DNA of 64,000 nucleotides, from positions 754,001-818,000 of the forward strand of contig NZ_VFOF01000001.1 in assembly GCF_006715975.1 (NCBI RefSeq), read 5' to 3'. Below, piece by piece: positions 11,399 through 30,635 of the stretch; position 1 is the first letter of the stretch; the number at the start of each line of letters is the position of its first letter. The notes under the pieces are model-generated. The model ran no database searches. It saw only the letters and a list, made by a program, of their open reading frames with translations, and had not been told where the DNA came from. A program made the position numbers and the translations under genes. The DNA comes from Zymomonas mobilis (lineage in GTDB: Bacteria > Pseudomonadota > Alphaproteobacteria > Sphingomonadales > Sphingomonadaceae).

Positions 11399-12082
11399 TT
11401 ATAGAAGGCCAAGCCCTCTTAGGCTGCAAGATCCGCTGCTGCTGATAATGACGTGGTCGTGAAGATATATTTTTAAAGGACGGGCGGCAGCAACAATTGA
11501 ACGCGTTAGCTGGATATCGGCTTCGCTGGGATGGGCATCGCCACTTGGATGGTTATGTACCAGAATAAGACCCACCGAGCAGAGCTCAATGGCACGTCAT
11601 ATCACTTCACGCACATAAACAGGCACTTGATCGACGGAACCCTCGCTAAGAACTTCGTCGCGGATAAGACGATTGTGATTGTCGAGATGAAGCAATCGAC
11701 ATCGTTCGGTTAGACGGAATGCCATATCGGCATGAAGATAATCTATAAGCGATTGCCAACCTGCAAGAATAGGGGCTTTTTTAACCTTGGTTTTAAGCAG
11801 TCTTAAGGCGGCAACTTGTGCGATTTTCAAGGCGGCAATAGCCGTTGGCCCTGCGCCCTTTACACGGGCAATCATACCCGGATCGGCTGTTAATAATGTT
11901 TCGATATCACCGAATTCGGCTAATAATGCGCGCGCCAGCGGTTTCGTATCTTTCCGCGGTATGGCAAGAGCTAAAAGATACTCTATCACTTCATGATCTA
12001 GCAAGGCATCAGAGCCGCTGTTAAGTAAGCGCTCCCTTAATCGGCTACGATGACCTTGAGAGCCAATGTCTTTTGTGTCCAT
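11399..12082 (-). pseudogene. radC: radC, interrupted by an in-frame TGA
   Basis: From ATG at 12082-12080 the frame encodes a normal RadC N-terminus (GHRSRLRERLL, a helix-hairpin-helix near GAGPTAIAALKIAQ) up to VYVREVI, then TGA at 11597-11599 (codon 162). The same frame continues without another stop to TAA at 11399-11401 and encodes the JAMM metalloprotease motif HNHPSGDAHPSEAD and the usual ending SLRGLGLL. Full length would be about 227 codons, the family norm. TGA replaces a position that is normally Lys/Arg (REVxxRA), consistent with a CGA-to-TGA transition. The predicted product lacks the whole metal site. A sequencing error is the main alternative. Confidence 0.85.
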
Positions 12083-12235
12083 TCTCAACGGATATAAAGG
12101 ATTGAAGCGGGATGTAATACTGTTTAACTCTAAAATAAATAAAAATGGCGCCTTTTTTCTAAAGCGTTCTTTAATATCATCGGAATCGTAACATCTTAAA
12201 ACTATATATCGATTTCTTAATAAAGAAAAACAGGG

Positions 12236-29688: not shown

Positions 29689-30635
29689 TTAACTGGCAGT
29701 TAGAAGAATAAATCCTCCCATAGAGATAATAGATAAAATTGTGCTAAAAAATAAAGTCGAAGCCATATCCCGTTCCATGAGTTGATATCGTATTGCGAGC
29801 ATGGTGGTAATGGCAGCGCTTGGTATAGCCATAGTGATTGTTGTCTGTTCAATGACAATGGATGGCATTTTATTTATCGACGCAAGAACCCATACCATTA
29901 TTGGAATAATAATATTTTTAGACAAAACTAATGATGCGACGATTTTATTTAAAATAACTTTATGTGAATATAAAATTATGCCTGATGAAAATAAGGCGAC
30001 GCCTCCGGTGGCCTTTCCCAAAAGCATTAAAGACGATTTTACTGTTTCTGGAAAAGGAATAGAGAGGAAAACAAAAGCCAACGCAAGAATAGGAGCAATC
30101 ACAATCGGTTCAGTAAAGGCATGAGCTAGATGATGAAAAAAAGAGCTACCCGTGGCTATTTTGCCAGTATCTGTTTTACGGGCATAAGCCGGTAAAAGCA
30201 TGATTGTGACAGGCACCTGCACAATATTCATCATCAGGCTACAAACGGAAACCAATAAGGTGCTACCCGAGCCAAATAGATGTCCCAAGACTGTAATACC
30301 AACAAAAGGGACAGCTGGCGCGCCAACAGAAAGAGAAATCAGCGCGGCTTCATTGAGAGGACGGCGGCAGACAAAATGGCTAATGGCTAAAGTTAAGAAA
30401 TATCCCCCGCCCATGGCACAGATCAGGATAGAAACCGCCGAACCTGATGATAAATTTGCGCTTTTGGGATTGATAGAATCCCAGAAAATAAGGTCATCGG
30501 TAAAGCATAGCGCAAGACCATCTTATTCAAGATAGCGGCCTGATTAGCTGTAAAATCGCCTCGCCATCCAGCAAAGAAACCTATCATCAAAGTAATTATA
30601 ATCGGTAGTAAAGCCGCTATAATAACTTCTAGCAT
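29689..30635 (-). pseudogene. AEC family (auxin efflux carrier/MdcF-like) transporter, frameshifted
   Basis: Two frames together make one AEC permease of the normal length of about 315 residues. The first, from ATG 30635, reads MLEVIIAALLPIIITLMIGF... to SIPKAQI and then meets a stop at 30423. The second frame, one base shifted, picks up at about 30455 with SSGSAVSILICAMGGGY and continues through nine or so membrane helices to 29689. A single missing base near 30448-30455 explains the break. Such carriers export or import carboxylates. Being 64 bp upstream of the acetolactate synthase gene suggests an original transport-metabolism pair. The alternative is a sequencing error. Confidence 0.85.

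Follow-up and report, generated by a model that had tools for sequence, protein, structure and literature searches.

The radC gene of the Zymomonas mobilis DNA analysed here, a stretch of 64,000 nucleotides (the window; NZ_VFOF01000001.1, positions 754,001 to 818,000), carries an in-frame TGA at codon 162, and the best reading, which we consider probable, is that a nonsense mutation arose recently in this lineage. One C to T change would have turned an arginine codon (CGA) into TGA, recently relative to the split of this lineage from Z. mobilis. Translation would then stop after 161 residues, covering the N-terminal region and the early part of the JAB domain, and the half that bears the HxHx7SxxD motif would be missing. 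The original prediction had placed a pseudogene, readthrough and a sequence error side by side; of these, a recent pseudogene now leads, a sequence error is a real second, and there is hardly anything to be said for readthrough.

The radC frame and its predicted truncated product

The radC frame occupies positions 11399 to 12082 of the window on the minus strand, with an ATG at 12082, 227 codons and a terminal TAA ending at 11399. Its translation runs from M through YVREVI, a stop, RAIELCSVGLILVHNHPSGD and LGLL to the terminal stop; the TGA at codon 162 (11597 to 11599, minus strand) is the single internal one, and a genome-wide profile search likewise reported one TGA inside radC. When this TGA is read as arginine, the complete frame scores 193.8 bits against PRK00024.1 (cut-off 180) and 193.9 bits against TIGR00608 (cut-off 133.85). 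Taken separately, the two halves score 105.5 and 71.8 bits against PRK00024.1, neither reaching the full-length cut-offs, and they fit positions 4-56 and 58-120 of PF04002 in succession, the gap being the position of the stop alone. Coding conservation among the Zymomonas genomes starts at 12082, and the start region is conserved together with the leader (12083 to 12150, minus strand), in which the GTTAAACAGTATTACATCC and TCAATCCTTTATATCC blocks are shared. A longer version of the gene, starting at ATG 12280, was rejected; the extension is unconserved and is interrupted by a stop in Z. mobilis (genome G001). The frame is a genuine gene and not a chance frame, and translation and profile matches confirm the earlier claim of an in-frame TGA in an otherwise intact radC.

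The predicted truncated RadC (11600 to 12082, minus strand) comprises the UPF0758_N region followed by the beginning of the JAB domain. It had been expected to keep the DNA-binding-like half only; that N-terminal half is indeed kept, but with it come 54 residues from the start of the JAB domain. The HxHx7SxxD metal-site motif, which by codon count spans codons 176-189 (11516 to 11557, minus strand), lies 14 codons 3' of the TGA and is therefore encoded in the DNA yet missing from the translated product. A solved RadC homologue, 2QLC, aligns without gaps over about 118 residues and has a lysine at the position of the radC stop. It is very doubtful, and the least probable of the explanations that we weighed, that this product is retained as a useful short protein. 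Its N-terminal half, which is intact and weakly resembles the helix-hairpin-helix of DNA ligase, and the conserved leader and start region would fit such a role. Against it, the stop interrupts the JAB fold once 54 of the residues aligned with 2QLC have been passed, so that half a domain remains, and radC does not end here in the other Zymomonas genomes.

Ancestral state of codon 162

The genome containing the window (G000; 7 contigs, 2.10 Mb) is the sole one here from its lineage and was compared with three other Zymomonas genomes. In all three the radC orthologue is intact and has a sense codon at this position, namely CGA in the two nearest, G001 and G003 (W26 MAG), and CGT in the third, G002. 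The TGA of the window differs from CGA (Arg) by one substitution, a C to T transition. Of the 36 homologous loci that cover this position, every one has Arg or Lys there. The proposed origin of TGA from CGA and the presence of Lys or Arg in family members are thus both borne out. A comparison with other Zymomonas genomes, suggested as a check on the stop, did return sense codons, but ordinary Z. mobilis genomes inform on the ancestral state only, because the genome of the window lies outside Z. mobilis sensu stricto.

This placement is based on the divergence between G000 and G001, which share about 82% DNA identity where the window can be aligned. The tRNA-guanine transglycosylase of G001 is nearly identical to many solved structures, which we take to be those of the Z. 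mobilis enzyme, and that of G000 differs at about two dozen positions. On these comparisons we assign G001 to Z. mobilis proper and G000 to a sister lineage, which is probably subsp. francensis. The radC gene of strain ZM4 is ZMO0663, for which the available text of PMC5930841 gives a synonymous change at codon L174; codon 174 is CTG in the window, and taken together these indicate that the ZM4 frame is open past codon 162. ZMO0663 corresponds to ZZ6_0616 (PMC8237431), and the intact radC of ZM4 and Z6 shows the ancestral form, not the state of the strain analysed here.

Age of the stop and the possibility of readthrough

Over the 65 codons past the stop, substitutions separate G000 from G001 at 37 of 47.8 synonymous sites, against 4 of 147 non-synonymous ones, and the halves of radC upstream and downstream of the stop are equally conserved. 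The downstream frame would thus have been under constraint until very recently. Judged by these substitution counts, the low non-synonymous change suggests that the stop either is too young to have left a mark, or is not real, or is tolerated. Since the synonymous sites are saturated, a gene that had been dead over the whole branch would differ at most of its non-synonymous sites. With four changes, and a rough upper limit of nine, the stop would have arisen in the final few per cent of the branch, as an order-of-magnitude figure.

Conservation downstream of the stop would also be seen if the UGA were read through often enough to yield functional full-length RadC, and the stop context, UGAC, is a weak terminator in E. 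coli. We nevertheless regard such readthrough as highly improbable. The stop is confined to one lineage, so the conservation of the downstream half predates it, and TGAC serves other genes of the window as a true terminator, TGA ending 18 of its 43 conserved genes with TGAC among the contexts. The RNA around the stop has no special or unusual structure (z-score 0.59). No SelB match above the profile cut-off was found in any of the four Zymomonas genomes, and a search of 46 tRNA genes (45 complete and one truncated at a contig end) returned none with a UCA anticodon; prfB, encoding RF2, is present in G000 above its cut-off. Recoding by selenocysteine or by a suppressor tRNA was rejected, as neither SelB above its cut-off nor a tRNA with a UCA anticodon was found. 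Reassignment of UGA to a sense codon was rejected as well, TGA being an ordinary terminator and RF2 having been kept. Even less credence is given to a leaky UGA 162 that would yield short and full-length RadC from one gene, with enough of the long form to hold the downstream half under selection.

Reliability of the assembly

A more serious rival to the nonsense mutation is that the TGA was introduced in assembly or base calling and that the radC of the strain is intact, which we consider unlikely. Within radC an error would look much the same, the frame being otherwise undamaged and free of decay past the stop. The rates of lesions in G000 and G001 were compared over the window and a further 200 kb, about 211 conserved genes, with breaks from overlapping antisense frames or poorly conserved stretches left out of the count. 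Relative to G001, G000 has at least four clear single-base deletions, which break homologues of PBP2 and of dihydrolipoamide dehydrogenase as well as two transporters, one MFS and one Mem_trans. The loss of PBP2 and of dihydrolipoamide dehydrogenase would be hard to survive, so the deletions in these two genes are probably assembly errors, and their occurrence in genes that should be essential means that the G000 consensus is not fully reliable. Long reads favour deletions over substitutions in their error profile, and unpolished long-read assemblies carry single-base deletions. For the new genomes of the probable source study, francensis included, the available text of PMC8088579 describes PacBio Sequel reads assembled with HGAP4, and Illumina reads are not mentioned in that text.

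The lesion in radC differs in kind from these suspected errors, which are deletions; it is a substitution, and a clean transition. A random substitution gives rise to a stop in only about 4% of cases, so that for one nonsense error some 25 substitution errors would be expected in all, against about 5 deletions, which is the wrong ratio for such reads.

Three of the deletions lie on contig C1 of G000, near 471410 in the PBP2 homologue (L136), near 601670 in the MFS transporter (L143) and near 625440 in the dihydrolipoamide dehydrogenase homologue (L144), and all three are probably uncorrected long-read errors. The fourth lies in the window, where the Mem_trans gene (auxin efflux carrier type; 29689-30635, minus strand) is split into frames of 70 aa and 241 aa by a one-base deletion near 30443-30468 relative to G001. 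The gene is intact in G001 and G002, and the split may mark another broken gene or have come from the assembly. The main contig of G000, exactly 1,980,000 bases long, ends within a tRNA gene with anticodon TGC (Ala) (L134, G000:C1:1979700-1980000), and the chromosome sequence is probably unclosed at this end.

Tolerance of the probable mutation and its meaning

Returning to the recent nonsense mutation as the preferred reading, we infer that the TGA is carried by the living strain, in which the truncated RadC would very probably be non-functional. The mutation would persist because RadC is dispensable in the family and because a second gene with a RadC domain, a JAB-only one, is left. In a survey of 236 good-quality genomes of the family, the RadC domain match is wholly absent in five, and one further case was seen of a stop, a TAG, inside one RadC copy in one genome. 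Z. mobilis TISTR 548 remains viable with a Tn10 insertion in its radC, which slightly lowers heat and ethanol tolerance, growth being poorer only at the highest temperatures and slightly reduced with ethanol (PMC5571576).

Each of the four Zymomonas genomes has a second RadC-domain match. The JAB-only gene of G000 encodes 141 aa, lies near clpB (G000:C1:1534244-1534669; L060:4245-4670) and keeps the HNHPSGDPTPSYMD motif (HNHPSG); the gene list of ZM4 also has a RadC gene near clpB, ZMO1426. This paralogue may compensate for the loss of radC.

In G001, a 330-aa gene at G001:C7:1065852 (L146) has an in-frame TGA in place of TGG, and the G000 copy is intact; this change indicates that it is normal for the genus to gain nonsense mutations naturally at about such a rate. 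As sequence the stop in radC is real; as biology it is ordinary, a further nonsense mutation confined to one lineage and to a gene that can be spared. Should the strain itself carry the stop, it would be a natural radC mutant. That label is not warranted from this assembly alone, and it is unsafe because the assembly shows likely false frameshifts in the PBP2 and dihydrolipoamide dehydrogenase homologues.

Comparison with known systems

Strain-specific pseudogenes with nonsense or frameshift lesions have been described in Zymomonas, and the available text of PMC5930841 and PMC8088579 does not name radC as one. Examples that are named there, ZMO0171, ZMO0955, ZMO1535 and ZMO2036 (PMC5930841) and bcsA, bcsB and diguanylate cyclase genes (PMC8088579), resemble radC in having one lesion in a conserved gene that varies by strain. 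Two other Zymomonas pseudogenes, ZMO0983 and ZMO1617, are recorded in the available source text as having later been traced to sequence errors.

With recoded UGA genes, whether selenoproteins or products of suppression or reassignment, radC shares an in-frame UGA in a conserved gene whose downstream frame is also conserved. It differs from them in that no such machinery was found, UGA is a normal terminator, and the ancestral codon is CGA for Arg and not a codon for Cys or Trp.

There is also a likeness to the RadC / UPF0758 family itself (PRK00024.1 and TIGR00608; PF20582 and PF04002; 2QLC), since the frame of the window, once read through, scores above the full-length cut-offs and has HxHx7SxxD in place. 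What sets it apart from the family is that its catalytic half is cut off by the TGA at codon 162.
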